A DNA stretch of 64,000 nt, taken from NCBI GenBank assembly GCA_022843485.1, contig JALHNM010000005.1, forward strand, positions 1 through 64,000, written 5' to 3'. The notes below the pieces were generated by a model that was not told the origin of the DNA, searched no databases, and saw nothing but the letters and a program-made list of their open reading frames with translations. Positions 21,385 through 53,162 of this stretch are shown here, piece after piece. The translations under genes were made by a program, and so were the position numbers. This DNA is from Fimbriimonadaceae bacterium. GTDB lineage: Bacteria > Armatimonadota > Fimbriimonadia > Fimbriimonadales > Fimbriimonadaceae. The stretch's first letter is position 1. Every line of letters starts with the position of its first letter.

Positions 21385-22242
21385 ATGAGCGAGACCGGGT
21401 CAGAAGTTCGAGTTCGGACGCCCTTGTTCGGGTTCCACGTCGTTGCGATCACGGGGGTGGGGGCCGGGCTTGGTCTTGTCTACGATCTCTGGCGGGGGCT
21501 GGAGGACTACACCCGACCACCCCTTTCCGGCCCCCCTTGGCTCGCGGCGACGGCCGTGTTGCTCGCCTGCCTGGGACTCTTAGCCCTGCTAGTGTGGATG
21601 GAGGTCGCGGTACGGCAAGGGTGGGACCCCCCGTTCTTCCGCGTCCGCGTGTACGGGGCCCAGGTGGTCGGCAAGTTGGCACCCCAAGCATCGGAGCCCA
21701 TCGCCAGTCTCAGCCTGCGCTTCCGGGACGGGAAGACCCACGTTTACATGGCTGACCCGGTCGAGTTCGCCGTGGTCCAGGTCGGGGACTATGTGGTGGC
21801 GGAGACGTTCGGCAAGTTCATCGCGCACGTCCGGGTGCTCGAACGTTCGGCCCGCCCGCTTGAGCCGGAAGTGGCCCAGGCCGGTCGGCGAACCCTGGTG
21901 TCCAGGAACCTGAATCCGAACACCATGGACTATCTGGTGATGGGCGGCGTGATCCCTGTGTGCGGGTGGATCGTCGGGAGCAACTTCTTGCCGCTCGTGT
22001 ACCTCCAGGACGTGTACTTTGTGGGCCGGAGGCGGTTCTCCCGGGTCAGAGACACGCTCGTCGATATCCGAGGCGACGAGGCGTTCTGGTTCAACATCGT
22101 CCCTGTCACGGTGGCCTTGTTGGCGATCGTGGTCGTGTCCGTGATCTGGGTACGAGGTTGGCGCAGCCGAGCCGTGTGGGAGTTCGACGAAGCGGAGCAG
22201 TCCGACCCACCGTGGTCGAGGCGGATCAGCAGCCTGTGGTGA
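21385..22242 (+). CDS. Integral membrane protein of unknown function
   Basis: The 285-residue protein has two N-terminal transmembrane helices (about residues 15-35 and 50-72), a soluble middle domain, and further helices around residues 180-200 and 240-262. The middle domain carries PPFFRVRVYGAQVVG and VEFAVVQVGDYVVAETFGKF. The arrangement resembles a DUF3592-like membrane protein: a membrane-anchored beta domain with a late helix pair. The frame is open far upstream, but the ATG at 21385 (MSETGSEVRVRTP) is natural, with TACACT (21370-21375) 9 bases before it. Its 3' end overlaps convergent ppk1 by 17 bases. Confidence 0.72.
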   Translation: MSETGSEVRVRTPLFGFHVVAITGVGAGLGLVYDLWRGLEDYTRPPLSGPPWLAATAVLLACLGLLALLVWMEVAVRQGWDPPFFRVRVYGAQVVGKLAPQASEPIASLSLRFRDGKTHVYMADPVEFAVVQVGDYVVAETFGKFIAHVRVLERSARPLEPEVAQAGRRTLVSRNLNPNTMDYLVMGGVIPVCGWIVGSNFLPLVYLQDVYFVGRRRFSRVRDTLVDIRGDEAFWFNIVPVTVALLAIVVVSVIWVRGWRSRAVWEFDEAEQSDPPWSRRISSLW

Positions 22243-24334
22243 ATCCGGCGTCCCCCTCGGCCCCGATCCCCGCGGAGGGATGGTCGACCAGGACGCGCTG
22301 GAGTTCGAACGGGTCGTCGTTCGGGCCGCGCCGGACCCGCCGGTAGAGCCCGTTCTTCCCCAGTTCCCAGGCTTTCTCGTTGTCGCGGAAGGAGTCGAGA
22401 AGGACCCGGTCGCGGAGGTACGCGATCTGCGCGGGGTCTTTGACGGGCACCAGCACCTCGATGCGCCGGTCTAGGTTCCGGCGCATCATGTCCGCGCTCC
22501 CGATGAACGCTTCGGGGGTCCCGCCGTTCTCGAAGTAGTAGACCCGCGAGTGCTCGAGGAACCGGCCGACGATGCTCACGACCCGGATGCGGTCGCTGAG
22601 CTTGCGCACGCCGGGGCGGAGGCAGCAGATCCCGCGCACGACGAGCCCGACTTCGACCCCGGCCTCGCTCGCGTCGTAGAGGGCGTCGATGACCTCGGGA
22701 TCGACGAGCGAGTTGAGCTTGAAGAGGATGCGCCCCGAGCCGGTGGTGCGGTAGACCTCGACCTCACGTTCGATACGCTCGATGATCTGCTCCCGCAAGT
22801 CCAAAGGGGCGACGAGGAGCTTGCGATAGTGCGACTGCCGGCTGAACCCAGTGAGGTAGTTGAACAGCTCGGTGATGTCCTGGCAGACCTCGGGGTCGCA
22901 CGTGAAGAGTCCGAGGTCGGTGTACAGCCGGGCGGTCTGCGGGTTGTAGTTCCCGGTGCCGATGTGGGCGTACGTCTTGATCCCGCCGGGCTCGTCGCGG
23001 ACCACCAGGCAGAGCTTGCAGTGGACCTTGCGGTCCGAGAACCCGTAGGTGACGTGGACCCCGGCCTGTTCGAGGGCTCGCGACCAGACCAGGTTGTTGC
23101 TCTCGTCGAAGCGAGCCTTGAGCTCGACCATGACCGCGACCTGTTTGCCCTTCTCCGCCGCCCGAAGGAGGCTCTCGACGATCGGCGACTCGGTGCCGGC
23201 GCGGTAAAGGGTCTGCTTGATGCCGATGACGCGAGGATCCTCGGCCGCGGCCGCCACGAACTCCTCGACCGAGCGGAAGCTGTCGTAGGGGTGGTGGACG
23301 AGAACGTCGCGCCGGGCGATCTCGGCGAACAGGCCCGGCTGGCGGCTCACTCGGGCGTGGGCGAAGGGGACATGGGGGCGGAACTTCAGGTTCGGCTTAT
23401 CGACCTTGGCGAGAGCGTACATGACGTCGAGCCCGATGAGCCCATCGACGCGGTTGACGTCCTCCTTGTCCAACTTGAGGCCGCTGCGGAGGGTCTCGAC
23501 CGGGCCGTCCCCGAGGCCTGCGCTGCACTCAAGGAGGACCGGGTCGCCGAAGCGACGCATGCTCAGTGTGCGCTCGATCGCGGAGATGAGGTCGGCGGCC
23601 TCGATCTCTAAGATCTCGAAGTCGGCGTCGCGGATGACCCGAAAGGCGTGGCAAGCCGCGACCTCGACCCCTGGGAATAGGTAGTGGAGGTGGTTCGCGA
23701 TGAGGTCCTCGACGAGGACGAACTGCATCGCCCGCCCCGGGAGGCGGATGAGCCGCGGCACGACGGGCGGCACTTTGACTCGGGCGAGGCGGGTCTTGTC
23801 GCCCTCTCGCAGCTCGACGGCCAAGTTGAGCGACCGGTTCGAGATGAACGGGAACCGGATCGCGGGGCTGAGCATGAGGGGGGTGCACAGCGGGAAAACG
23901 GTCCGTTCGAAGAAGGCGGTCATCTCGCGCTGGCGGGGGGCGGCGAGACTTTGGAACGTAACGATGGCGACACCGTTGCGCTCGAGCGCGGGCCGGAGGT
24001 CTTGTGACCACACGTCGCTCGCCTTTTGGCGCAGGGGCCGGGCGACGTCCGCGATCATCGCGAGTTGCTGCGTCGGGGTGAGGCCGTCCGGGGTTGGCTC
24101 GACGATCCCGCTCGCCTCCTGCTCGTGGATGCCAGAGACGCGGACCATGTAGAACTCGTCGAGGTTGCTCTCGAAGATGGCGAGGAACTTGAGCCTCTCG
24201 AGCAGGGGGTTCGACTTGTTCTCCGCCTCGGCGAGGACGCGGGCGTTGAACTGGAGCCAGCTGAACTCGCGGTTGACGTACCGGCTGTGCTGGACCCAGT
24301 CGAGTCCGGGGACGGCTGGCCTCACAGCGGGCAC
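22226..24334 (-). CDS. ppk1: Polyphosphate kinase 1
   Basis: PPK1 reversibly polymerises the ATP gamma-phosphate into inorganic polyphosphate at the inner face of the membrane. The 702-residue length is normal. The N-terminal domain has SRYVNREFSWLQFNARVL and FESNLDEFYMVRV. The first phospholipase-D-like domain carries H438 in KVHCKLCLV, the phospho-histidine position, followed by YAHIGTGNYNPQTARLYTD. The second essential His is in VGRFLEHSRVYYFENGG. The start overlaps the end of ppx by 13 bases, so synthesis and degradation enzymes are made from one mRNA. Confidence 0.97.
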   Translation of the reverse strand: MPAVRPAVPGLDWVQHSRYVNREFSWLQFNARVLAEAENKSNPLLERLKFLAIFESNLDEFYMVRVSGIHEQEASGIVEPTPDGLTPTQQLAMIADVARPLRQKASDVWSQDLRPALERNGVAIVTFQSLAAPRQREMTAFFERTVFPLCTPLMLSPAIRFPFISNRSLNLAVELREGDKTRLARVKVPPVVPRLIRLPGRAMQFVLVEDLIANHLHYLFPGVEVAACHAFRVIRDADFEILEIEAADLISAIERTLSMRRFGDPVLLECSAGLGDGPVETLRSGLKLDKEDVNRVDGLIGLDVMYALAKVDKPNLKFRPHVPFAHARVSRQPGLFAEIARRDVLVHHPYDSFRSVEEFVAAAAEDPRVIGIKQTLYRAGTESPIVESLLRAAEKGKQVAVMVELKARFDESNNLVWSRALEQAGVHVTYGFSDRKVHCKLCLVVRDEPGGIKTYAHIGTGNYNPQTARLYTDLGLFTCDPEVCQDITELFNYLTGFSRQSHYRKLLVAPLDLREQIIERIEREVEVYRTTGSGRILFKLNSLVDPEVIDALYDASEAGVEVGLVVRGICCLRPGVRKLSDRIRVVSIVGRFLEHSRVYYFENGGTPEAFIGSADMMRRNLDRRIEVLVPVKDPAQIAYLRDRVLLDSFRDNEKAWELGKNGLYRRVRRGPNDDPFELQRVLVDHPSAGIGAEGDAGFTTGC

Positions 24335-25230
24335 GGCTCGATCCTCCCCCGGGACATCAGTAAGACCGCCCCTTCTCGGACGCCGTACTCGCTAATGGTC
24401 GTCTGGTCGAACCCGAACCGGCGCATGATCGCGAGGTAGACGAGCGCCCCGGGCAGCAGGGTCGCGGCGCGACGGGCCTTGACTCGGAACCGGTCAGAGA
24501 GGCGGTCCACAGGGAGGCGTTGCGCGACCCGGGCGAGGTACTCCAACTCGTCGAGCCGCAACAGCCGCTCGCCGTCGGGGTGGAGGGCTCGGAGGAAGCC
24601 CCGGGCCACCCCGCCGCTCGAGACCATGCGTCGGGCCCCGGTCATCGCCGGTGCGCTTGAGAGCCGCTCCTCGATAATCGCGATCGCCCGGGCGACGTGA
24701 GCCTCGTCGGGCACCTCGCTGAGCCCGGCGCGGTCGAGGATCACGCCCGTCCCAAGCGGGAGCGAGACGGCGCACTCGAGCTCTTCGCCGTTGCAGAGGG
24801 CGATCTGGACGCTTCCCCCACCACCCTCTACCAAGAGGAAGGGCGACGGGCCGTCGGAGTCGAAGAGGGCTCCGAGCAACCCGAGCTCTGCCTCCACCGA
24901 GGGCGAGACGAGGTCGACCTTGAGGCCGGTCTCGACCTCGATGCGGCGAAGCACGTCCGCGTGGTTCTCGGCCCGCCGCATGGCCTCGGTCGCGAACAGG
25001 TAGAGCCCGCTGGCCCGTTGCTGAACGGAGCGGCGGCGGAACCCGGTGACGGATCGGACGAGATGGTCGGCGAGGGCGACCGGGATGTGCCCCTTCTGGC
25101 TTACGATCTGCCCGAGCGAGAGCCAGTCGCTCTCGTTGACGAGGCGGGAGAGCCCCGTCGATCCAAGGCTGGCGACGAGAAGGTGGGCCGTGTTGCTCCC
25201 GATATCGGCCGCCGCCAGCACCTTCGTCAT
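24322..25230 (-). CDS. ppx: Ppx/GppA family exopolyphosphatase
   Basis: The 302-residue enzyme belongs to the ASKHA fold Ppx/GppA phosphatases, which remove terminal phosphate from polyphosphate or pppGpp. The phosphate-1 loop is AAADIGSNTAHLLVA and the second loop is LLVEGGGGSVQIAL. SGGVARGFLRAL and DELEYLARVAQRLP fit the C-terminal part. It lacks the HD and extra domains of long Ppx, as in short actinobacterial-type Ppx. It is upstream of ppk1 with a 13-base overlap. TAGACT lies 10 bases before the ATG, so its mRNA would have an almost absent leader. Confidence 0.93.
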   Translation of the reverse strand: MTKVLAAADIGSNTAHLLVASLGSTGLSRLVNESDWLSLGQIVSQKGHIPVALADHLVRSVTGFRRRSVQQRASGLYLFATEAMRRAENHADVLRRIEVETGLKVDLVSPSVEAELGLLGALFDSDGPSPFLLVEGGGGSVQIALCNGEELECAVSLPLGTGVILDRAGLSEVPDEAHVARAIAIIEERLSSAPAMTGARRMVSSGGVARGFLRALHPDGERLLRLDELEYLARVAQRLPVDRLSDRFRVKARRAATLLPGALVYLAIMRRFGFDQTTISEYGVREGAVLLMSRGRIEPCPL

Positions 25231-29995: not shown

Positions 29996-30012
29996 GGTTA
30001 AGGTCCGGTTAA
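29996..30012 (+). promoter_or_regulatory. Pho-box-like direct repeat upstream of phosphoesterase
   Basis: GGTTAA at 29996-30001 and again at 30007-30012 (11-base period) within ATCGGTTAAGGTCCGGTTAA. It closely matches the element at 39241. In PhoB-type boxes two 11-base half sites replace the -35 element. The downstream gene encodes a phosphoesterase. Confidence 0.45.
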
Positions 30013-30063
30013 ATCTAACGGCACAAGGCTCCCGGGTAGCGACAGGCCGCGTGGGTGGCCAGT

Positions 30064-32736
30064 ATGCTGATGTCGATGATCTGTGCCCTCCTCGCCGTTG
30101 CGCTCTCGTCTCCTGTCGCCCCTGACGCGGCCCCTCTCGTCTTCCGGGCCCCGGCGGGTCGTGAGTTCGCGAAGATCGTCCCCGGCGGGAGAACGATCCT
30201 GCCGAACGGTCGCTTCCTGACGCCGAAAGGCCGCCGGCTCTACGGTGGGTCGGACGTGTGGCAGACGCTTGTGTCGCCGGACGGGCGGACGGTGGTCGTG
30301 TTCCACGACGACGGCCTGACCTCGTACGACCTAACCGAGGCGAAACCCGAGCGCAAGGCGGTCACGATCAAGGGGCTTGCTCCGGCGGGAGTGTTCCTGC
30401 CTGGCGGCAAGCGGCTCGTCGTGAGCCTGGGCGACTCGGGCAAGCTCGCCCTGCTGCGGGTGCCGGAGATGACCACGGTCGCCGAATGGGACACTGTCAA
30501 GGGCGCGCCGGGGAGGTACGTGAACGACCTCGTGGTCAACCGCGCTGGGACCCTCGTCTACGGCGTGGACGTCGCCCGGCAGGAACTGGTCACGGTCGAC
30601 GCGGCGAGCGGGGCCGTGCTCTCGACGGTGCCTGCGGGCAGGCAGCCGTACGCCTTGGCCTTCGGGCCAGATGAGCGGAGCCTTATCGTCGCGAACATCG
30701 GGCTCTTCGACTATTCGACGATCCCGCTCCCCCGCGAGGGCGAGGGCTACCGGGAGGGCCTGACCCGCCCGCCGTTCGCCTTCCCGAGCGAAGCCGCGGT
30801 GCAGGGCGTCGAGTTCGAGGGCCGGTTCGTGCCCGGGCTCGGCGAGGTGGGGGCACCCGGGGCCCAGTCGGTCTGGCGGTACGACCTCGCCGACTCGAAA
30901 GCCCCGCGGTTCGACGCCCACGCCAAGTGCGGGGTGATGATCACCGCCGTCACCGAGGGACGGGAGGCGGTCGGCGGAAGCGCCCCGAACGCGCTGCTGG
31001 TCCGAGGTGACCGCCTTTACGTCTCGAACGCGAACAACGACACAGTTCAGGTGTTCGACGCCCGGACACTGAAGACGGTGCGGACGATCCGGCTCTCCCC
31101 CACGAAGGAGACGGCGCTTTTGCGGGGCGTGATCCCGAGTGGGATGGCGATGGATCGCTCCGGGAAACGCCTTTACGTCTGCGAGAGCGGGCTGAACTCG
31201 GTCGCCGTCGTCGATCCGGGGACGGGCCGCGTTCGGGGGCGGATCCCGACCGGATGGTTCCCGATGCAGGTCCGGCTGACCCCGGACGAAAAGACCCTCG
31301 TGATCGCCTGCCAGAAGGGGCTCGGCCGGGGCCCGCGCGGGGCGCTCGACCCGCGGCCCCAAACCGACGAGCGGTTCGGGCTGCCGGACATGCCAGGGAT
31401 GGCGGACGTTGTCCCGGTGCCGACCGACGCCCAACTGCGGAGTTGGTCGCGCGAGGTGTTGGTGAACAACGGGCTCGTGCCCGTTTCAAACCCCGACACG
31501 ACCCCGAACCCGATCCCGCTCGTGCCAGGCAAGGAGAGCGAGCAGATCAAGTACGTCGTGTTCATCACGAAGGAGAACCACACGTTCGACGGGATCTTCG
31601 GGGGGCTGAAGGGCGCGAAGGGTCGGCCCGAGTACGCCGAGTTCGGGATGGAGGGGTGGATCAAGGAGAAGGGCAAGGACGTGCGGATGCCGATCATGCC
31701 CAACCACGTCCGGCTGGCCGAGCAGTTCTCGATCAGCGACAACTTTTACATGGAGCCCCAGGCGAGCGGCGACGGCCACCGGTGGCTCATCGGCGTCTAC
31801 CCCTCGCTCTGGACGACCCGGGTGTTCTACGCCGGGTGGCAGTTCCGTCGGGACGACCGGGCGAAAGGTCGCCTCGTCTCGATGGGCTCGGACGGGTCGC
31901 AGATCCCGGAGGACTACCTCGAGAACGGCTCGATGTGGGAGCACTTCGAGCGGGGCGGGGTGAGCTTCCGGAACTACGGTGAGGGGTTCGAGCTTCCGGG
32001 GCAGATCGAGCCGGGCAACCCGCCGCGCACTGGGTCGCTCCTGCAGGTCAACCACCCGGTCAACCGGGCGCTCTGGGACAACACCTGTTGGGAGTACCCG
32101 GTCTACAACACGAACATCCCCGACATCGCCCGGGTCGAGTGGCTCAAGGAGGACGTCGAGAAGAACTTCCGGGCGAAGGGCAAGCCGCTTCCCCGCTTCA
32201 TCAACGTGACGCTCTGCAACGACCACGGCGACGCGGCGAGACCGGATTGGGGGTACCCGTTCGTGTGCTCGTACATGGCGGACAACGACTTGGCCCTCGG
32301 GCGCTTGGTCGAGTGGCTCTCGCAGCAGCCGGAGTGGCCACAGATGGCGGTCTTCGTGACTCAAGACGACCCGGGTGGGGACGACGACCACATCGACCGG
32401 CACCGATCCTTCGTCCTCGCGCTCGGGCCGTGGGCGAAGCGCGGGTACGTGAGCCGCGACCACACGTCGATCATGTCGATCCTGAAGACGATCTACCTCA
32501 TCTTCGGGCTCGGGCCGAACACGATGTTCGACGCGCTGGCCACTGACCTTCGGGACATGTTCACGATGCGGCCCGACACCCGCGGGTACACGCACGTGAT
32601 GACGGACCCGCGGGTGTTCGTGCCTGAGACGGCCTACAAGCCGGGCGACCCGCGGTTCAAGGATCGCCGTTGGGTCGAGCCGGGGGTCAAGATGGACGAC
32701 CCCGAGTTCGTGGAGGGGCTCCGGCGGGGCGGTTAG
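30064..32736 (+). CDS. Secreted beta-propeller / phosphoesterase fusion protein
   Basis: The roughly 890-residue exported protein has an N-terminal signal (MICALLAVALSS). A YncE/YVTN-type seven-bladed propeller of about 470 residues follows (blades such as DRLYVSNANNDTVQVFDART and GKRLYVCESGLNSVAVVD). The C-terminal phosphoesterase of the acid phosphatase/phospholipase C superfamily has VFITKENHTFDGIFGG, with the nucleophile Thr, NDHGDAA and FVTQDDPGGDDDHIDRHRS for metal binding. Such fusions hydrolyse phosphate esters outside the cytoplasm. Blade three contains a palindromic insert (PLPREGEGYREG). A GTG at 30055 is an alternative start. The end overlaps the convergent dGTPase by 4 bases. The upstream Pho-like repeat suggests phosphate control. 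Confidence 0.9.
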   Translation: MLMSMICALLAVALSSPVAPDAAPLVFRAPAGREFAKIVPGGRTILPNGRFLTPKGRRLYGGSDVWQTLVSPDGRTVVVFHDDGLTSYDLTEAKPERKAVTIKGLAPAGVFLPGGKRLVVSLGDSGKLALLRVPEMTTVAEWDTVKGAPGRYVNDLVVNRAGTLVYGVDVARQELVTVDAASGAVLSTVPAGRQPYALAFGPDERSLIVANIGLFDYSTIPLPREGEGYREGLTRPPFAFPSEAAVQGVEFEGRFVPGLGEVGAPGAQSVWRYDLADSKAPRFDAHAKCGVMITAVTEGREAVGGSAPNALLVRGDRLYVSNANNDTVQVFDARTLKTVRTIRLSPTKETALLRGVIPSGMAMDRSGKRLYVCESGLNSVAVVDPGTGRVRGRIPTGWFPMQVRLTPDEKTLVIACQKGLGRGPRGALDPRPQTDERFGLPDMPGMADVVPVPTDAQLRSWSREVLVNNGLVPVSNPDTTPNPIPLVPGKESEQIKYVVFITKENHTFDGIFGGLKGAKGRPEYAEFGMEGWIKEKGKDVRMPIMPNHVRLAEQFSISDNFYMEPQASGDGHRWLIGVYPSLWTTRVFYAGWQFRRDDRAKGRLVSMGSDGSQIPEDYLENGSMWEHFERGGVSFRNYGEGFELPGQIEPGNPPRTGSLLQVNHPVNRALWDNTCWEYPVYNTNIPDIARVEWLKEDVEKNFRAKGKPLPRFINVTLCNDHGDAARPDWGYPFVCSYMADNDLALGRLVEWLSQQPEWPQMAVFVTQDDPGGDDDHIDRHRSFVLALGPWAKRGYVSRDHTSIMSILKTIYLIFGLGPNTMFDALATDLRDMFTMRPDTRGYTHVMTDPRVFVPETAYKPGDPRFKDRRWVEPGVKMDDPEFVEGLRRGG
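30726..30760 (+). repeat. Palindromic repeat-like insert in propeller domain
   Basis: CTCCCCCGCGAGGGCGAGGG encodes LPREGEG, part of IPLPREGEGYREGL. This is the hallmark peptide of interspersed GC-rich palindromes that have entered reading frames. Related sequences are at 11457 and 46153. Confidence 0.45.
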
Positions 32737-33989
32737 TCGGCGCCTTCTCCTGGCTCCGCCAGTCCGTTCGCCTGGGCCTCGGTCAATGACGCGACGACGT
32801 CGGCGCTGACCCGGGCCAGGGGTTGCCCTTCCTCGACCGCCTCCCGCGCCCAGACCGGCGCGAGCGGGGTCACAGCGCCGTGTTCGAGGGCTTCGAGTGT
32901 CCGGGCGAAGAGGGCGCGGACGACCTCGCGTTGACCGACCCGAAGCCGCTCGAGTTCGGGGGCCTCGACGACGACCTGCCACACGGCCTGCTTGAGCACT
33001 TCCACAAGGACGCGCACTTCGGGCTCGACGGCGAGAGTGGGGGGGTCGGAGGCGGTCAGGCTCGATCCCTGGACGGCGAAGCGTTCGATGAGGCGGCTGG
33101 AGAACCGGTGCAGGGCGGCCCGGTCTGCGCTAGAGCCCGAGAACGGGCCGCCCAGGGGGTACACGGAGGCCAGCCAATCGACGGCGCGGTCGAGGTCGCC
33201 TCGGGTGATCCACGCGAGGGCGGGTCGGCCTTGGAGGAACGCGGCGACGCGGTCGAGGAAGGGCGCGCGCCCGTCACCGGTGAGGAGGGTCTCGAGGGGG
33301 AGCGTGCGGGCCCGGGCGAAATCGTAGACGTCGTGGACGGAGTAGGCGACGTCGTCGGCGAAGTCGACGACCTCGGCTTCCAGGGTCCGTCTGGGAGGGG
33401 CCTGGCTCCCGACCGCCCACTCGAACGCCTCGGCGTCCTGGGGGTAGACGCCGTACTTGTCGGTGGCGTCGGGATGGGCGCCGCGGGGCCAGGGGTACTT
33501 GAGTGTGGCGCGAAGGGTCGCCCGGGTGAGGTCGAGCCCGGGGCCGTCGGCGGACCGCACGGCTAGGCGGGTCACGATCCGGAAGGACTGGGCGTTGGCC
33601 TCGAACCCGCCCGCTTCGGGGTCTACGGCATCGACCAACTCGCAAAGCACCCGCTCGCCGTGGTGTCCGAAGGGCGGGTGGCCGAGGTCGTGGACGAGGG
33701 CGGCGGCCTCGACGACGTCGGGGGAGAGCGTCTCGTCCGGTGAGAGTCGGTCGGGGTAGCGACGGAGCAGGTGCTCGGCGGTGCGTCGGGCGATCTGCGC
33801 GACTTCGAGGGTGTGGGTGAGGCGGTTGTGGTGGAGGGCCTCGGCGGTGCTCGGCGCGACCTGGGTCGTGCCCGCAAGGCGCCGGAAGGCGGCACTGTAG
33901 AGCACCCGGTCGCGATCCTTCTCGAACCGCGACCGGTTATCCGCACCCGGCAGACCGTGGCGCCGGGCCTCGCGATCAGCCCCGGTCAC
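32733..33989 (-). CDS. dgt: Deoxyguanosinetriphosphate triphosphohydrolase (dGTPase)
   Basis: The 418-residue HD-domain enzyme splits dGTP or other dNTPs into nucleoside and tripolyphosphate, controlling dNTP pools. It begins with the family signature RFEKDRDRVLYSAAFRRLAGTTQV. The metal site is AALVHDLGHPPFGHHGERVL (HD pair), and DFADDVAYSVHDVYDF supplies the later metal-binding Asp. The GTG start at 33989 has no good Shine-Dalgarno sequence. It lies 33 bases downstream of the E2 acyltransferase gene and may be read from the same mRNA. Confidence 0.95.
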   Translation of the reverse strand: MTGADREARRHGLPGADNRSRFEKDRDRVLYSAAFRRLAGTTQVAPSTAEALHHNRLTHTLEVAQIARRTAEHLLRRYPDRLSPDETLSPDVVEAAALVHDLGHPPFGHHGERVLCELVDAVDPEAGGFEANAQSFRIVTRLAVRSADGPGLDLTRATLRATLKYPWPRGAHPDATDKYGVYPQDAEAFEWAVGSQAPPRRTLEAEVVDFADDVAYSVHDVYDFARARTLPLETLLTGDGRAPFLDRVAAFLQGRPALAWITRGDLDRAVDWLASVYPLGGPFSGSSADRAALHRFSSRLIERFAVQGSSLTASDPPTLAVEPEVRVLVEVLKQAVWQVVVEAPELERLRVGQREVVRALFARTLEALEHGAVTPLAPVWAREAVEEGQPLARVSADVVASLTEAQANGLAEPGEGAD

Positions 33990-34022
33990 CGGCCTCTTCG
34001 CCTGGCCTGCCGACCCATGGCG

Positions 34023-35321
34023 CTAGCGATAGAACTCGAACTTCTCGAGCCGGCCTTTGACCGTCTGGAGGAAGCGGCCGGCGGTGAGGCCGTCGACGAG
34101 GCGGTGGTCGTAGGTGAGGACGAGGTTCATGATCGAGCGGATCGCGATCATGTCGTCGACGATCACCGGCTTCTTGACGATGCCGTAGGCGCCGAGGATG
34201 CCGCTCTGGGGGGCGTTGATCATCGGGGTGCCGAGGACGGCGCCGTAGGAGCCCGGGTTGGTGAGCGTGAAGGTGCCGCCCTGGACGTCGGCGACGCCGA
34301 GCTTGTTGCCCCGGGCGTTTGCCGCAATGGTCTCCAGGTCCTTGGCGACCTCGACGACGGACTTGGCCTGGCAGTCGCGGATGACGGGGACGATGAGCCC
34401 ACCGTCCCCTTTCTCGCCGAGCGAGACGGCGACGCCCATGTGGACGCCCTTGTGGAGCGTCACCTGGCCGTCGACGAGGGCGGCGTTGAGGTAGGGGAAC
34501 TCGAGCAGGGTGTCCGTGATCGCCTTGATGAAGAACGGCGTGTAGGTGAGCTTGACCCCGAACTGGGCCTGGAAGCTGTCCTTGTTGAGCTCGCGGAACT
34601 TGACGAGGTTGGTGACGTCGACCTCGATCAGCGTCGAGACGACGGGCACTTGGCTGGAGCGCGTCATCGCCTCGGCGATCATCTTGCGCATCCCGGTGAG
34701 GGCGTGGGTCTCCGAACCGGCGCCGGAGGCGACGGGGGCGGCCGGGGCGGCGAGTCCGCCGAGGTCCGCGCTCCGGGCCGGGCTCGGGGCGGTCGCGCTC
34801 TTGCCTCGGTTGGCGAGGTAGCCCTCAAGATCCTTCTTGTTGACCCGTCCGCCGGCGCCGCTCCCGGCGATCGAGGCGAGTTCGCCTTCCGTCACGCCGT
34901 TCTCGCGGGCCATCGTGCGCACGAGCGGGGTGTACCAGCGCCGACCGCCCTGGTCGGTCTGGACGGCGGGTTCGGGGGCCTGGGCTGGCGTAGCCGGGGC
35001 GACGGGTGTGGCGGGGGGCGGGGAGCCCGCGGAGGCCGCAGCGGCGGGGCCGCCGTCAGCGATCATCGCTTTGGCCGCAGCCTCGTCCGCTTCGATGAGG
35101 CCCATCGCGTGGAAGACCTCGACGTCCGAGCCCTCGGGGATCAGGATCTTGACCAAGAAGCCGCTGGCGGGGGCGCCGAGTTCGGTGTTGACCTTGTCGG
35201 TCATGATCTCGACCACCGGTTCGTCCTCCTTGACGAAGTCACCGACCTGCTTCAACCAGCGACTGACGGTCCCTTCATGGACGGACTCGCCCAACTCCGG
35301 CATCAAGATCTCGACGGGCAT
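34023..35321 (-). CDS. Dihydrolipoamide acyltransferase (E2) of a 2-oxoacid dehydrogenase complex
   Basis: The 432-residue protein has an N-terminal lipoyl domain with the modified Lys in MTDKVNTELGAPASG, then a Pro/Ala linker. A peripheral subunit-binding domain follows (VRTMARENGVTEGELASIAGSG). The CAT-like catalytic domain ends in YDHRLVDGLTAGRFLQ, with the active His and Asp. Length and the GTLTEW-free lipoyl sequence fit SucB or BkdB; which complex it serves cannot be told because no E1 or E3 gene is nearby. TAGAAT (35330-35335) lies 8 bases before the ATG, predicting a leaderless mRNA. Confidence 0.93.
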   Translation of the reverse strand: MPVEILMPELGESVHEGTVSRWLKQVGDFVKEDEPVVEIMTDKVNTELGAPASGFLVKILIPEGSDVEVFHAMGLIEADEAAAKAMIADGGPAAAASAGSPPPATPVAPATPAQAPEPAVQTDQGGRRWYTPLVRTMARENGVTEGELASIAGSGAGGRVNKKDLEGYLANRGKSATAPSPARSADLGGLAAPAAPVASGAGSETHALTGMRKMIAEAMTRSSQVPVVSTLIEVDVTNLVKFRELNKDSFQAQFGVKLTYTPFFIKAITDTLLEFPYLNAALVDGQVTLHKGVHMGVAVSLGEKGDGGLIVPVIRDCQAKSVVEVAKDLETIAANARGNKLGVADVQGGTFTLTNPGSYGAVLGTPMINAPQSGILGAYGIVKKPVIVDDMIAIRSIMNLVLTYDHRLVDGLTAGRFLQTVKGRLEKFEFYR

Positions 35322-35329
35322 ACGGTGTC

Positions 35330-35335
35330 ATTCTA
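35330..35335 (-). promoter_or_regulatory. -10 element of leaderless E2 promoter
   Basis: TAGAAT on the minus strand, 8 bases upstream of the ATG at 35321, in the 71-base gap after the upstream lyase gene. There is no Shine-Dalgarno sequence. Confidence 0.6.
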
Positions 35336-35392
35336 GCCCGAACCGGCGATCCCCGGGGCAAGCCGCCCCGGGCCCGCTTCGAGAGGTCTTCC

Positions 35393-36790
35393 CTACCTGC
35401 CCGGGATCCCCGGTTCGGTGAGGAGGGCGGGGTCGAGGGCTTTGGCGAGGGTCTCTTCGTCTAGGAGGCCCTTCTCACGCACGACCTGGGGGATCGTCTT
35501 CTTCTCGGCCAGGGCGGTCTTGACCACGTCGGCCGCCGTCTTGTAGCCGACGTAGACGTTGAGCGCCGTCGCGAGCGAGGGGGAGGTCTCGGCGTAGTGG
35601 CGGCACCGTTCGGCGTCGGCCTCGATGCCGAGCACGCAGTTGTCGGTGAACGTCTCGAGGGCGTTGGTCAGGATTTGGAGCGCGAACTGAGCGCTGAAGG
35701 CCATGCCGGGCATCATCACGTTGAGTTCGAGCTGGCCGGCGCGGACGCAGTCGTCGATCGTGGCGCACTGACCGAGCACCTGGAACAGCACGATGTTCAT
35801 GTTCTCCGCCATGCTCGGGTTGACCTTGCCGGGCATGATCGACGACCCGGGTTGGACGGCGGGCAGGACGATCTCGGCGATCCCGGTGAGCGGGCCGCTG
35901 CAGAGGAGGCGGAGGTCGTTCGTGATCCGGGTCAGCTCGTTGCAGAAGAGGCGCAGCGATGCGGCGAGGGCGGCCATGCAGAACTGGCTCTGCATCGCCT
36001 CGCGCATGTCGGGGGCGGTGCGGAACTCAAGGCCGGTGGCGTCGCGGAGGTTCGCTACGACCCGATCCCGGTAGTCGGGGTGGGTGTTGAGGCCGGTGCC
36101 GGCGGCGCTCCCGCCGATGCCGAGCTCCTCGAGCTCGAAGGCGGCTTGATCCAGCCACCGCCGGGCGCGGCGGAGGGCCACGGAATAAGCCATGAACTCT
36201 TGGCCCAGGCGGATCGGCACGGCGTCTTGGAGGTGGGTGCGGCCGGACTTGAGCACCCCGTCGAACTCGACCGCCTTCTGGGCGAAGGCGTCGGCGAGGC
36301 CGTCCACGGCTGGGAAGAGGTCCTCCATCATCAGCCTCGCCATCACCCGCATCGCGGTCGGGAACGTGTCGTTCGTGGACTGGCCGTAGTTGACGTGGTC
36401 GTTCGGGTTGACCTTCTGGTACTCGCCCTTTCGGCCGCCGAGGATCTCCTCGGCGCGGTTGGCGAGGACCTCGTTCACGTTCATGTTCAGGCTTGTGCCC
36501 GCGCCCATGTGGAAGACGTCCACCGGGAACTGGTCGCGAAGGCCCCCGCCTAGGACCTCGTCGGCGGCGGCGACGATCGCCTCGCCTTGGGCCCGGTCGA
36601 GGAGGCCGAGGTCGGTGTTCGCCTGGGCGCACGCCTTCTTGAGCAGGACGTAGGCGTCGACCATCCGCGGGTGCTCGGTGAGCCCAGAGATGCGGAAGAG
36701 GTTGCGGGTGCGCTCGGCCTGGCTCCCCCAGTAGGCGTCGGCGGGCACATGGACGTCGCCCAGAGAGTCCTTCTCGATTCGGGTGCTCAT
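35393..36790 (-). CDS. Aspartate ammonia-lyase / class II fumarase family lyase
   Basis: The 465-residue enzyme belongs to the aspartase/fumarase superfamily, which eliminates ammonia or water to give fumarate. Conserved region 1 is GAGTSLNMNVNEVLANRA, region 2 is NPNDHVNYGQSTNDTFPTA and region 3 is the mobile loop GSSIMPGKVNPSMAENMN, whose Ser is the catalytic base. The wording GAGTS(L)NMN and PNDHVN-QSTND is closer to aspartase (AspA) than to FumC, which normally has GSGTQSNMN. The loop ending MAENMN is atypical for both. TAGACT (36800-36805) is 9 bases upstream of the ATG. It precedes the E2 gene on the same strand. Confidence 0.9.
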   Translation of the reverse strand: MSTRIEKDSLGDVHVPADAYWGSQAERTRNLFRISGLTEHPRMVDAYVLLKKACAQANTDLGLLDRAQGEAIVAAADEVLGGGLRDQFPVDVFHMGAGTSLNMNVNEVLANRAEEILGGRKGEYQKVNPNDHVNYGQSTNDTFPTAMRVMARLMMEDLFPAVDGLADAFAQKAVEFDGVLKSGRTHLQDAVPIRLGQEFMAYSVALRRARRWLDQAAFELEELGIGGSAAGTGLNTHPDYRDRVVANLRDATGLEFRTAPDMREAMQSQFCMAALAASLRLFCNELTRITNDLRLLCSGPLTGIAEIVLPAVQPGSSIMPGKVNPSMAENMNIVLFQVLGQCATIDDCVRAGQLELNVMMPGMAFSAQFALQILTNALETFTDNCVLGIEADAERCRHYAETSPSLATALNVYVGYKTAADVVKTALAEKKTIPQVVREKGLLDEETLAKALDPALLTEPGIPGR

Positions 36791-36865
36791 ACCGGGCGGA
36801 GTCTACTCTCGCGATGCGCCCCGAGAGCGGGGGCTCGGCGGGCGGGAACCGGGTACAACAGCGAT

Positions 36866-37549
36866 ATGGTTCAGTCTTGGAAGTCGGGGTTCGGAATTCT
36901 TCTTACAACCGGCCTAGTGTTCGGCGGGCTCCTTTCCGTAGCGTCGTGCGGGGGATCGGGGTCGGTGACGGGGATTACGGCGCGGTTGGTCTCGATCCAC
37001 CTGGCGCCGGGGTTCGGGCCGCTCACCCTTGAAGTGGACGACCGCCCCGTGGGCCCGCTGGCGGCACTCTCGAGCCGGACGGACTCCGTGCTCGAAGGAG
37101 CCTATCAGACGCTCTACCGAGACTCGAACGGCTTCGCGGCCTCGTCCGCTGCCGTGCAGCTCCGCTCGGACGAGTGGCGGTTCCTGGTCGTGACGCCCAC
37201 CACGGCCTACCAGGAGGCCCTCGCGCGGTTCCCACTGGGCACCCAAGGCTGCCTGGTCATCGCCCCTGCCCTCTCGACCGGGAGCTACGACGTCTACATC
37301 ACGCCCGGAACGCCCGGGCTCGGGACGGCGATCGAAGTTCGGCAGAACGTTCCGGGCACTGGGCGGGCCGAGCAGTGGGTCGTCACGCCGGGTACTTACC
37401 GCGTCGTCGTGACCCCGGCCGGCGGATCGACGGTGCTCCTGGACTCGGGCCAGTTCGCGGTCTCGGCCTCGTCCGCCACGTTCTACGGGCTTTACCGGGA
37501 CAGCGGGGGCACACCTCAAGGCCAACTCCTGACGGTCGCCGTGCCCTGA
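36866..37549 (+). CDS. DUF4397-type lipoprotein
   Basis: The 227-residue protein has an N-terminal signal with a lipobox ending in SVASC (LLSVASCGG), so it should be lipid-anchored on the outer face. The body is a DUF4397 beta-sandwich: RLVSIHLAPGFGPLTLEVDD, SGSYDVYITP-like and WVVTPGTYRVVVTPAGG strands, typical of secreted Planctomycete and Bacteroidete proteins. Function is unknown. TACAAC lies 6 bases before the ATG, a near match to the leaderless motif. It is divergent from the aspartase/fumarase gene. Confidence 0.85.
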   Translation: MVQSWKSGFGILLTTGLVFGGLLSVASCGGSGSVTGITARLVSIHLAPGFGPLTLEVDDRPVGPLAALSSRTDSVLEGAYQTLYRDSNGFAASSAAVQLRSDEWRFLVVTPTTAYQEALARFPLGTQGCLVIAPALSTGSYDVYITPGTPGLGTAIEVRQNVPGTGRAEQWVVTPGTYRVVVTPAGGSTVLLDSGQFAVSASSATFYGLYRDSGGTPQGQLLTVAVP

Positions 37550-37692
37550 CCCGGCTTCCGTTCTTCCCACCCCAACGGCCTAGCCCCGATAAGCTCGAAC
37601 ACCGGGATTTCGGTACGGCCGTCACAGGATGCGATTTGGGATCGAATATCGGCACGTCAGATGCAGAACTGCACTGAGAGGACGCCACGAAC

Positions 37693-38367
37693 ATGAATCG
37701 ATCCCTTGTCTTCTTCGCTGGTCTGGCCGTTGCCGCCACGGCCCCGGCTCAGATCGTCGCGACCACGCTCACCGACGCCGAGACGAACGCCCTGCTCATC
37801 AACAAGACGTTCGCCGCCGAGTCGCGGATGGGCAACAACGGCATGAGCGGGGACTTCGAGCTCGGCCTCCAGAAGCCGACCTCGGGCTACTTCGCCACTT
37901 CGAACCGGACGTGGACGAACGGCGGGGCGCTGTCGTTCACCCTCGCTTTCGACGGGACGAACCTTGACTACACGGTCGGCGGCGTCACGGTCAGCTACAG
38001 TCTGCTCCCGGGCGAGAAGAAGGGGCTCTCCGACGTCTTCTTCCGACTTCGCGCCCCCCAGAACGGGACGGTGACCGTGTCGGACGTCAAACTGGACGGA
38101 GTGGACGTGACCGGCTTCACCCCGCGGACGGACGGGGCGAGCGTGTTCTGGCTGAAGGCGGCGGACATCGCGGCCCAGACGGGTTCGGGCCTCGCGGACG
38201 GGTTCACGATGACGGGCACGCAGGTGTTCTCGTGGACCGGACAGGCTCCGACCGCCTCGCAGCTGGCCTACCAGATCAAGGTCGCCGAGGCCGTGCCGGA
38301 GCCGGCCACGATGGTCGCGCTCGGGGCGGGGCTCCTCGCCTTCGCCCGCCGTCGCCGGGGTCGCTGA
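37693..38367 (+). CDS. PEP-CTERM sorting-domain protein
   Basis: The 224-residue secreted protein has a signal peptide (MNRSLVFFAGLAVAATAPAQ), a beta-rich body, and a C-terminal PEP-CTERM tag. The tag has VPEPATMVALGAGLLAF as sorting motif and hydrophobic helix, ending in the basic RRRRGR. An exosortase would cleave it for export to the surface or biofilm matrix; no exosortase gene lies in this window. GAGAGGACG upstream is a Shine-Dalgarno sequence, so this gene is leadered. A hairpin follows the stop. Confidence 0.92.
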   Translation: MNRSLVFFAGLAVAATAPAQIVATTLTDAETNALLINKTFAAESRMGNNGMSGDFELGLQKPTSGYFATSNRTWTNGGALSFTLAFDGTNLDYTVGGVTVSYSLLPGEKKGLSDVFFRLRAPQNGTVTVSDVKLDGVDVTGFTPRTDGASVFWLKAADIAAQTGSGLADGFTMTGTQVFSWTGQAPTASQLAYQIKVAEAVPEPATMVALGAGLLAFARRRRGR

Positions 38368-38370
38368 GCG

Positions 38371-38407
38371 GGTCTGTGCCCCCGGGCTGAGTGCCCGGGG
38401 GGCGGAC
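38371..38407. terminator. Bidirectional hairpin between convergent genes
   Basis: CCCCCGGGC-TGAGT-GCCCGGGGG forms a perfect 9-base-pair stem, with outer GGTCTG/CGGACC pairing. It lies between the PEP-CTERM gene stop and the end of the M15 peptidase gene on the other strand. Confidence 0.65.
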
Positions 38408-38415
38408 CGTAGGCG

Positions 38416-39012
38416 TTAGGCGCGAGGGGGCTGGGTGGCTTGGAAGTGCATCGCGTCCCTGCCCCAGAAGGCTCCGGCCGCCATCCATCCCTCGGCCGCG
38501 AAGCACTCCATGACCTCGAGGGGCATGACGGCCTGGGCCGGCCAGTGGGTCCTGTTCCCGTTGCGCCCCGCATCGAGGTCGATGGCGATCGCCCAGGAGT
38601 GCATAGACCAGGCGGACCCGTTCCTCATCTTGCGGGGGTTATAGAGGCCGTTGTAGGTAAGGATGCCCGCCTCGCGCCGCGAAGCTTCGTCCGGGAAGGC
38701 CTCGGCGAGACGGATGAAGACGCGGGCGAGCGACTCCGCGCACTTCTCGTGAGGGCGAAGGACGCGAACCGGCTGCCCATCGTAAAAGATTGGGAACGGA
38801 AGCTCGACCCGCCCCATCGGGGGGGTGTAACCGCCCTCTTCGCCCTTACGGCCGTAAAAGACGGGCACGTTCGCCTGGGTGGGGAACGGGTGCGGCTCGG
38901 GCATCATGTCCTCGAGGTGCCGGCGGCACGCCGCGATGCTGATGGGACCCCAGAACCCGTCGGGCTCGACCCCGATGCGTTCCTGCATTTTCTTGATTCG
39001 GGCGATGGTCAT
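38416..39012 (-). CDS. M15-type peptidoglycan peptidase with peptidoglycan-binding start
   Basis: The 198-residue protein resembles phage endolysins. An N-terminal peptidoglycan-binding helix set (RIKKMQERIGVEPDGFWGPISIAACRRHL) is followed by an M15 D-Ala-D-Ala carboxypeptidase/L-Ala-D-Glu peptidase domain. Zinc ligands appear as H and D in SMHSWAIAIDLDAG and the late H in DAMHFQ. There is no signal peptide, so in phages it would need a holin. No phage genes flank it, so it may be a domesticated endolysin. GGAAGGACAAGAG before the ATG is a strong Shine-Dalgarno sequence. Confidence 0.88.
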   Translation of the reverse strand: MTIARIKKMQERIGVEPDGFWGPISIAACRRHLEDMMPEPHPFPTQANVPVFYGRKGEEGGYTPPMGRVELPFPIFYDGQPVRVLRPHEKCAESLARVFIRLAEAFPDEASRREAGILTYNGLYNPRKMRNGSAWSMHSWAIAIDLDAGRNGNRTHWPAQAVMPLEVMECFAAEGWMAAGAFWGRDAMHFQATQPPRA

Positions 39013-39240
39013 AGTCTCTTGTCCTTCCCGCGTAAACGGGATGTGTACTTAGGATAGAGCATGAGGAACCACTTTCCTCACCCATGGTCGCGCGGCACGA
39101 CCGGAACTTTAGGTCGTTTAGCAGTCACGGGTCGGGGCTGAGGTTGGAGCGCTCACCGACACCAGATGGCTTGACGAGTCTGAGCATGCCCTGCGTTCGA
39201 CCTGCCGGGGCCCCGATTTCCGAAACAGTCCTCATGATCG

Positions 39241-39257
39241 GGTTAAGGTTCGCTTAA
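39241..39257 (+). promoter_or_regulatory. Pho-box-like direct repeat at the regulator promoter
   Basis: GGTTAA (39241-39246) and GCTTAA (39252-39257) repeat with an 11-base period inside ATCGGGTTAAGGTTCGCTTAA. The -10 hexamer TAGACT starts 7 bases later, so the repeat occupies the -35 region, as a PhoB-type activator site does. The copy at 29996 is nearly identical. Confidence 0.5.
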
Positions 39258-39264
39258 GGGCTCG

Positions 39265-39270
39265 TAGACT
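39265..39270 (+). promoter_or_regulatory. -10 element of leaderless regulator promoter
   Basis: TAGACT lies 8 bases upstream of the GTG at 39279, just after the 11-base direct repeat. Confidence 0.55.
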
Positions 39271-39278
39271 TCGCGGCC

Positions 39279-40523
39279 GTGGCAGACCTGGGAGCGGCGC
39301 TTCGGGAAGAGCGTAAGAGGTTACGGCTGACGGTTCGCGAGGCGGCCCGCGGGGCGGCGGTCTCGATGAGCACCGTCAAGCGGTGGGAGTCCGGCGAGAG
39401 AGTCCCCCACGGGGCCTTGGTCGGGGCATACGCGAGGTACCTCGCGTCTCTGGGGTCGTCGATCTCGCCGACGGTCGGCTTTGCCCTGGATACCAGCCGG
39501 TCGAGGATCCCCGGCCTGTTCGCGTTCTACCGCCGCCGGGCGGGGCTGACGCTCCGGATCGCGTCGGCGGCGGTCGGGCTGAGCCCTGCGACGCTCCACC
39601 GGATCGAAGTCGGTGTCCGACCGCCGGAGGACGAGGACGAGTTCGGACGGCTCTGTGGGCTCTATGGGTGCCGAAAGGCCGACGCCGAGCGCCTCCACGG
39701 GCTGCTCACGAACCCCCTCCCGGCCTCCGGAGCCGAGGCCTGGCAGATCGGGTGGACGCTCAACGACTTCCGTGCCGGAAAGGACGAGAACGACCTCCCG
39801 ACCGCGTCGTGGATCGCGCAGGTGGGCGACTCCTATGCGGCCCACAAAGCGGCCGAGCCGACGGAGACGCTGCAGTGTCTGGCGGCGTGGCAGAGCGCCC
39901 TCACCGGGTCGGGCGACTGGGAGCTCGCCTCCAAGGTTGGGGCCCGGATGGTCGAAATCGCCCAGGCCGCGCCCGAGACCGCTCCGTACGTCAGGCCGGT
40001 GAAGCGGTTCCGTGCGTTCACGTTCGGGCTACGGGCTGACGTGCGCGACGCCCGGCGGATCGCTGCTCGGCTCGCCGACTCGGTCTCGGGTCAGGTTGGT
40101 CTGGACGCCTACGACGGCTACCTCTATGCAGGCCGCCTCGCCCGCGCGCTGGGCGACGAGGCGCGGTGGGGCACGCTGAGCGAAGGGCTCCTCGAAGCAG
40201 GGCGGAGTTCGGGCAACCCGATGTACGAGTCGGCGTCGCGGGTCCACAAGGCTCTGGGCGACGACCAGTTCCGCCCCACCGACCGGCTGTTCGAGGTGTG
40301 CGCTGAGGTCGATAACCCGGACGCGTCCGGGTGGACCCGCTTCTTGGCCGAGACCGCCCGGTTCCAGGGCCACTGTCGACGCCGGGACTGGGGGGCGGCC
40401 GCCTCGGTCGGCACCCGGCTCCGGGCCGCATTCGAGACTCGGGGCTTCGGTAGCCCCGTCCTCGACGAGGCGCTGGTTCGCTTCCCTGAGCTGCAAGAAG
40501 CCCTCGAACCCGCCTACGCCTGA
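39279..40523 (+). CDS. Double XRE-type helix-turn-helix protein with helical repeat region
   Basis: The 414-residue protein has two successive HTH domains. Residues 5-60 contain ALREERKRLRLTVREAARGA followed by MSTVKRWESGERVP, and residues 78-130 contain FYRRRAGLTLRIASAAVGLS followed by ATLHRIEVGVRPP. The remaining 280 residues are helical Ala/Arg/Leu-rich sequence with TPR-like spacing, as in regulators that sense a peptide or metabolite. No enzyme domain is seen. It starts at GTG with TAGACT 8 bases upstream and a Pho-box-like repeat at the -35 region. No toxin or phage partner is adjacent. A transcription regulator is the safe call. Confidence 0.82.
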   Translation: MADLGAALREERKRLRLTVREAARGAAVSMSTVKRWESGERVPHGALVGAYARYLASLGSSISPTVGFALDTSRSRIPGLFAFYRRRAGLTLRIASAAVGLSPATLHRIEVGVRPPEDEDEFGRLCGLYGCRKADAERLHGLLTNPLPASGAEAWQIGWTLNDFRAGKDENDLPTASWIAQVGDSYAAHKAAEPTETLQCLAAWQSALTGSGDWELASKVGARMVEIAQAAPETAPYVRPVKRFRAFTFGLRADVRDARRIAARLADSVSGQVGLDAYDGYLYAGRLARALGDEARWGTLSEGLLEAGRSSGNPMYESASRVHKALGDDQFRPTDRLFEVCAEVDNPDASGWTRFLAETARFQGHCRRRDWGAAASVGTRLRAAFETRGFGSPVLDEALVRFPELQEALEPAYA

Positions 40524-52408: not shown

Positions 52409-52425
52409 CTAACCCCCCGTTAACC
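52409..52425 (-). promoter_or_regulatory. Third, weaker 11-base direct repeat
   Basis: Read on the minus strand, GGTTAA is followed after 5 bases by GGTTAG, the same 11-base period as the repeats at 29996 and 39241. It lies between the divergent DinB and pseudopilin genes. The intervening bases are all GC, so chance cannot be excluded. Confidence 0.3.
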
Positions 52426-52448: not shown

Positions 52449-53162
52449 ATGTCCGTTCTCGATCCTTGCACGTTCCCTCGCCGCCGCGGCTTCACGCTCA
52501 TCGAGCTGCTCGTTGTCATCGCGATCATCGCGGTGCTCGCCGCCATCCTCTTCCCAGTCTTCGCCCAGGCGAAGGCCAAGGCCAAGCAGTCCCAGTGCCT
52601 CAGCAACACGAAACAGTTGGCGGTCGGGCTCCGGCTCTACTCGGACGACTGGAACGGGGTCTACCCGGGGGCCGGGTGCGTCGATGAAGTGGGTTGGGTG
52701 GACAGTCGCCGACGAGGGGGGATTGAGACGGGGGAGATCTTTCCGTACGTCAAGTCGGCCGGGGTCTACCTTTGCCCCCTCGACCCGAACCTCGACCGGA
52801 ACCGGTACTCGTTCGCGATGAACGTATGCATGTCGCGGCGGGCGGAGTCGACCCTGGCATGGCCCTCCTCGACGGTCCTCCTGCTGGAGGAGAACGAGAA
52901 CACGGCGGGTGGGAACACGGGGCTCAACGATGGCTGCTACTACGCCTGGTACACGCAGGACCGGCCCGCCGTGCGGCATAACCGAGGCGGTCACTTCGTC
53001 TACGGCGACACGCACACGAAATGGCACCCGGGGATCGATTTCCGGTTCGCGCGGACCGGGCCTGAGCGGGGTATCGGTCGGCTGTGGGAGCGGTTCGACC
53101 CGGGCCGACCCGAAGAGGACGAGCCCCGGCTCCCCTGGCGGGATACGTACTGCTTCGAGTGA
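52449..53162 (+). CDS. Type IV pseudopilin-like protein (DUF1559-type)
   Basis: The 237-residue protein has a short basic leader, then the prepilin peptidase motif [20 protein letters not shown] with the Glu at +5, so it is processed and N-methylated. The continuation [21 protein letters not shown] is the common form in Armatimonadetes. The C-terminal part contains the H-x-GD type [18 protein letters not shown] found in DUF1559/H-X9-DG proteins of Planctomycetes. It may be a cell-surface or type II secretion pseudopilin. Its start codon has no clear Shine-Dalgarno site. Confidence 0.92.

Follow-up and report, generated by a model that had tools for sequence, protein, structure and literature searches.

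The PhoP box of Bacillus is made of TT(A/C/T)ACA repeats with 5-bp spacers, its sites often holding four repeats; written as TTAACA-N5-TTAACA it matches the repeat described here in period and very nearly in half-site, in another phylum. The PhoB box of E. coli consists of two 11-nt direct repeats at a fixed 10-11 nt from the -10 element, upstream of pstS, porin and phosphonate genes (PMC1906773, PMC4415409), an arrangement and a set of targets that we also find here, with a different half-site, TTAAC. In Cyanobacteria, the SphR Pho box comprises at least three CTTAACCT repeats with 3-bp linkers (PMC1906773). It shares with the present motif the TTAAC half-site, the 11-bp period and the location upstream of pst and phosphatase genes, but differs in its number of CTTAACCT repeats, at least three against two as a rule here, in sequence (CTTAAC-AWTYC here) and in phylum. 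The CtrA box, TTAA-N7-TTAA, has the same core in the -35 position (PMC11264516), but belongs to a cell-cycle regulon of Alphaproteobacteria, while the regulator found here is PhoB-like. For Armatimonadota, our search of the open-licence literature yielded no description of a Pho box or Pho regulon.

We analyzed a stretch of 64,000 nucleotides from a Fimbriimonadaceae bacterium of this phylum (the window), for which a preliminary description had proposed that a shared 11-base direct repeat, GGTTAA-N5-G(G/C)TTAA, is a possible Pho box. All three copies that it listed, including the one on the reverse strand, are present, and the identities that it gave to the neighboring genes are borne out, as is the absence of the repeat from ppk1 and ppx. 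The sites and genes are as follows:

22226-24334, - strand: ppk1, polyphosphate kinase, without a Pho box
24322-25230, - strand: ppx/gppA phosphatase, without a Pho box
29996-30012, + strand: predicted Pho box 1, GGTTAAGGTCCGGTTAA, GGTTAA-N5-GGTTAA, with the core TTAA-N7-TTAA at 29998-30012
30064-32736, + strand: secreted phosphoesterase with PF04185 (Pfam, 43.6 bits) and a beta-propeller, its N terminus reading as signal-like in the sequence
39241-39257, + strand: predicted Pho box 2, GGTTAAGGTTCGCTTAA, GGTTAA-N5-GCTTAA, with the core, identical to that of the regulon, at 39243-39257
39265-39270, + strand: candidate -10 element TAGACT, 7 nt past box 2, where the norm in the regulon is 11 nt
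39279-40523, + strand: double HTH (HTH_31/XRE-like) regulator, with two HTH_31 stretches
52409-52425, - strand: third, weaker site, GGTTAACGGGGGGTTAG, GGTTAA-N5-GGTTAG, with 1 mismatch to the core
52449-53162, + strand: pseudopilin of the prepilin N-methylation/DUF1559-like type, downstream of the third site

The phosphoesterase gene starts 52 bp downstream of box 1, and the pseudopilin gene, on the + strand, 24 bp from the third site. With 1 mismatch allowed, the repeat has 3 matches in the window, compared with 0.06 expected from dinucleotide shuffles. TTAA is indeed scarce in this DNA, as had been claimed: the window holds 14, of which 5 lie inside the three sites.

With pattern searches and fetched stretches, we extended the count to all 2.96 Mb of the assembly (20 contigs). 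The results show that the repeat is real and not a product of chance, and they refine the 11-base version to a conserved core, TTAA-N7-TTAA, which has an 11-bp period. This core has 23 exact copies; a spacer of 6 gives 6 copies, and the other spacers in the range 0 to 25 give 0-2 each. Since the mean over these other spacers is 0.6, the 23 spacer-7 copies lie far above chance, for which the expectation is about 0.3-0.6 exact N7 cores per genome (about 0.3 under a first-order Markov model). The reversed-pattern control, AATT-N7-AATT, has no copy genome-wide. Matches with one mismatch total 66, chance ones included, against 17 in the control. All 29 of the spacer-6 and spacer-7 sites are intergenic, as judged on gene calls from a simple codon model.

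Ten of the 23 exact spacer-7 sites precede genes for the acquisition of phosphate or organophosphorus compounds, and an eleventh stands upstream of the operon that encodes a PhoB-like regulator. The ten comprise pstS (TIGR02136), followed by pstC; a Porin_O_P (oprP-like porin) gene, followed by pstS2-pstC-pstA-pstB; two PhoX genes; an alkaline phosphatase; two metallophosphoesterases (Metallophos); two PF04185 phosphoesterases, one of which is the window gene at 30064; and a phosphonate-degradation (Phn) HD oxygenase. Both PstS copies of the genome have boxes upstream. One-mismatch copies are found at phnD-phnC, at another metallophosphoesterase and at a divergent pair, in which a PhnX-like hydrolase and an HpnW_proposed (HpnW-type) FAD oxidoreductase are arranged around a TTTACATTCCCTTAAC box (L200:1336-3198); the pair is predicted to be a case of phosphate-controlled phosphonate catabolism. 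We also looked upstream of ppx-ppk1, phoU, the second pstB and a phoR-like gene, and none of them has a box.

Of the exact sites, about half have downstream genes without a known phosphate function, mostly of surface type (prepilin-like, PEP-CTERM, lectin and unknown secreted proteins), as well as the HTH gene 39279. Prepilin N-methylation/DUF1559-like pseudopilins recur directly behind boxes, at L051, L052, L057, L058, L061 and L067, at 52449-53162 in the window and, in the same-genus genome G001, at L299:10580. At L061:3954-4128, a secreted-protein gene is separated from a pseudopilin gene by a region with several TTAA repeats (3954, 3976 and 4114), possibly a complex operator. The secreted protein at L059:4136-5671 has a box and a weak PstS-like match (25 bits), and a pseudopilin gene comes after it. 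At L054:4005, an exact box has no called gene in the 1.2 kb downstream, which may harbor a small gene or a non-coding RNA.

Among named genomes, the PstS relative with the highest identity (63%) is from a Fimbriimonadaceae bacterium (L125). Conservation was analyzed at the pstS promoters of 27 relatives, a set counted apart from the own genome: 21 of them have the exact motif, and the remaining 6 have a copy with one mismatch. Within 420 bp upstream of pstS in the relatives, spacer 7 occurs 22 times and any other spacer 0-2 times, while the remaining 97 kb of these pstS loci contain no spacer-7 copy. The aligned consensus of 21 pstS promoters is (C)TTAAC-AWTYC-(C)TTAAC-AWTC. Two repeats are the rule in the 27 promoters, L185 alone having three TTAA in register, which places the motif outside the SphR-box class with its at least three repeats. 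For gene 30064, TTAA-N6/7-TTAA stands just upstream of all three close orthologues (G001, 71%; G019, 52%; G002, 50-75% over two fragments), and is absent upstream of a 44% homologue (G039) and of 31-39% paralogues in other genomes. An orthologue of the HTH gene 39279 was not found in the fetched loci, and the neighborhood of this gene is not syntenic in G001. As background only, the pstS promoters of 80 named genomes were surveyed: some Clostridia, Cyanobacteria and Gammaproteobacteria have an exact TTAA-N7-TTAA there, and many Proteobacteria with GC-rich DNA have none. Three outcomes had been named in advance as counting against a Pho box: repeats lying mostly inside genes, downstream genes unrelated to phosphate, and promoters without conservation. 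None of these was found, given the intergenic placement, the acquisition genes and regulator operon behind the exact sites, and the copies at every pstS promoter of the relatives and at the three closest orthologues of 30064. The Pho-box reading is thus supported; the phosphate role suggested for the HTH gene 39279 obtained no independent support.

We scored -10 hexamers downstream of the motif, and the mean score is highest at an offset of 11 nt past the second TTAA, both in the relatives' pstS set and in the own sites, which are independent of each other. This peak is the geometry of a PhoB-type promoter, with the box replacing the -35 element, and it fits the 10-bp spacing to the -10 element of E. 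coli PhoB boxes (PMC1906773). A good -10 element at 11 nt is seen at neither window site. Box 1 is without a clear one, and the TAGACT after box 2 does lie 7 nt from the repeat, as the preliminary description had it, a distance that it took for PhoB-type geometry where 11 nt is usual here. Its geometric argument is therefore weaker, and its conclusion still holds.

This spacing bears on the strongest of the rival explanations, in which box 2 (39243) and the site at 52409 do not belong to the regulon, having arisen by chance or by decay, even though the motif serves as a Pho box at other places. The 7-nt distance at box 2 would agree with it, as would the finding of no orthologue of gene 39279 in the fetched loci and the mismatch at 52409, which places that site in the class of 66 matches against 17 in the control; yet the exact N7 core is expected well under once per genome, neither site lies inside a gene, and pseudopilins are a recurrent gene type behind boxes. 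We consider this explanation rather unlikely. In our judgement, which was not computed, box 1 is very probably functional and box 2 likely so, while the odds for the 52409 site fall slightly short of even.

Four full OmpR-type regulators are encoded in the genome, and the best PhoB match among them is the PhoB-like regulator on contig C11 (G000:C11:5932-6603). Its best NCBIfam model is PhoB (TIGR02154, 252 bits, below the equivalog cut-off of 296), and its nearest solved structure is RegX3. A strong match to this regulator is present in 28 of 31 genomes and is single in all but one. Genome G005 has no exact motif, and at the thresholds applied it lacks both pstS and a C11-type regulator. An orphan kinase (G000:C2, about 174033-175274) is most like PnpS/PhoR (283 bits, below the equivalog cut-off of 334); the genes for regulator and kinase adjoin neither each other nor pst. 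Directly upstream of the PhoB-like gene, and overlapping it, lies the gene for a 374-aa protein, here called X (L049:6600-7724, - strand, G000:C11). Protein X is 54-80% identical in 16 relatives and uncharacterised; its AlphaFold model has a pLDDT of 81, with weak KOW/NusG-like and barrel-sandwich matches. In the own genome a well-scoring box precedes the X-phoB operon, which has boxes upstream in several relatives as well.

That the genome has four full OmpR-type regulators, in a family that often reads 11-bp repeats, and that many targets are surface proteins, could suggest a different member of the family (e.g., the one in the L050 kinase-regulator pair) governing a general envelope stress response with the phosphate genes as one branch. 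The broad and nearly always single occurrence of the C11 regulator, the boxes at its own operon and the standing of the pstS promoter as the best-conserved site make this very unlikely. A CtrA-like master regulator of surface and pilin genes, for which the identical TTAA-N7-TTAA core, the -35 placement in Alphaproteobacteria (PMC11264516) and the pseudopilin genes behind several sites would speak, we reject as extremely improbable because the conserved regulator scores 252 bits to the PhoB model against 144 to that of CtrA (cut-off 350) and because the conserved targets, pstS and phosphatases, are not those that define CtrA. None of the four OmpR-type regulators, at 121-147 bits against the same cut-off, is a CtrA orthologue.

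Taken together, these results make it very probable that the repeat is the Pho box, a PhoB/PhoP-type operator, of this Armatimonadota lineage, from which we infer binding by PhoB and a response to phosphate. In the proposed mechanism, the two head-to-tail 11-bp half-sites would take the place of the -35 element. At low phosphate, the PhoR/PnpS-like kinase on C2 would phosphorylate the PhoB-like regulator on C11, and a dimer of the latter, occupying both half-sites, would recruit sigma-70 RNA polymerase to a weak -10 element. Through box 1 the regulator would switch on the gene of the secreted phosphoesterase (30064), which is probably a member of the Pho regulon; box 2 would probably act on the HTH gene 39279, a possible member, with a less certain geometry. 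It is a more speculative and on balance improbable extension of the Pho-box reading that the Pho response of Armatimonadota has parts particular to this lineage, such that protein X, made from the phoB operon under Pho-box control, would aid PhoB or the polymerase, and that pseudopilins and PEP-CTERM surface proteins would belong to the regulon and aid phosphate capture.

Pho switches are well known elsewhere; what is new is a Pho box and a predicted regulon for a phylum in which we found none described. The work provides an operator consensus together with this predicted phosphate regulon, and extends the TTAAC-type Pho box of Cyanobacteria and Bacillus, very probably, to Armatimonadota. Less expected are the surface pseudopilins near boxes and the conserved, uncharacterised gene that shares an operon with phoB. 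For several uncharacterised surface proteins of these bacteria, phosphate scavenging is suggested as a role.
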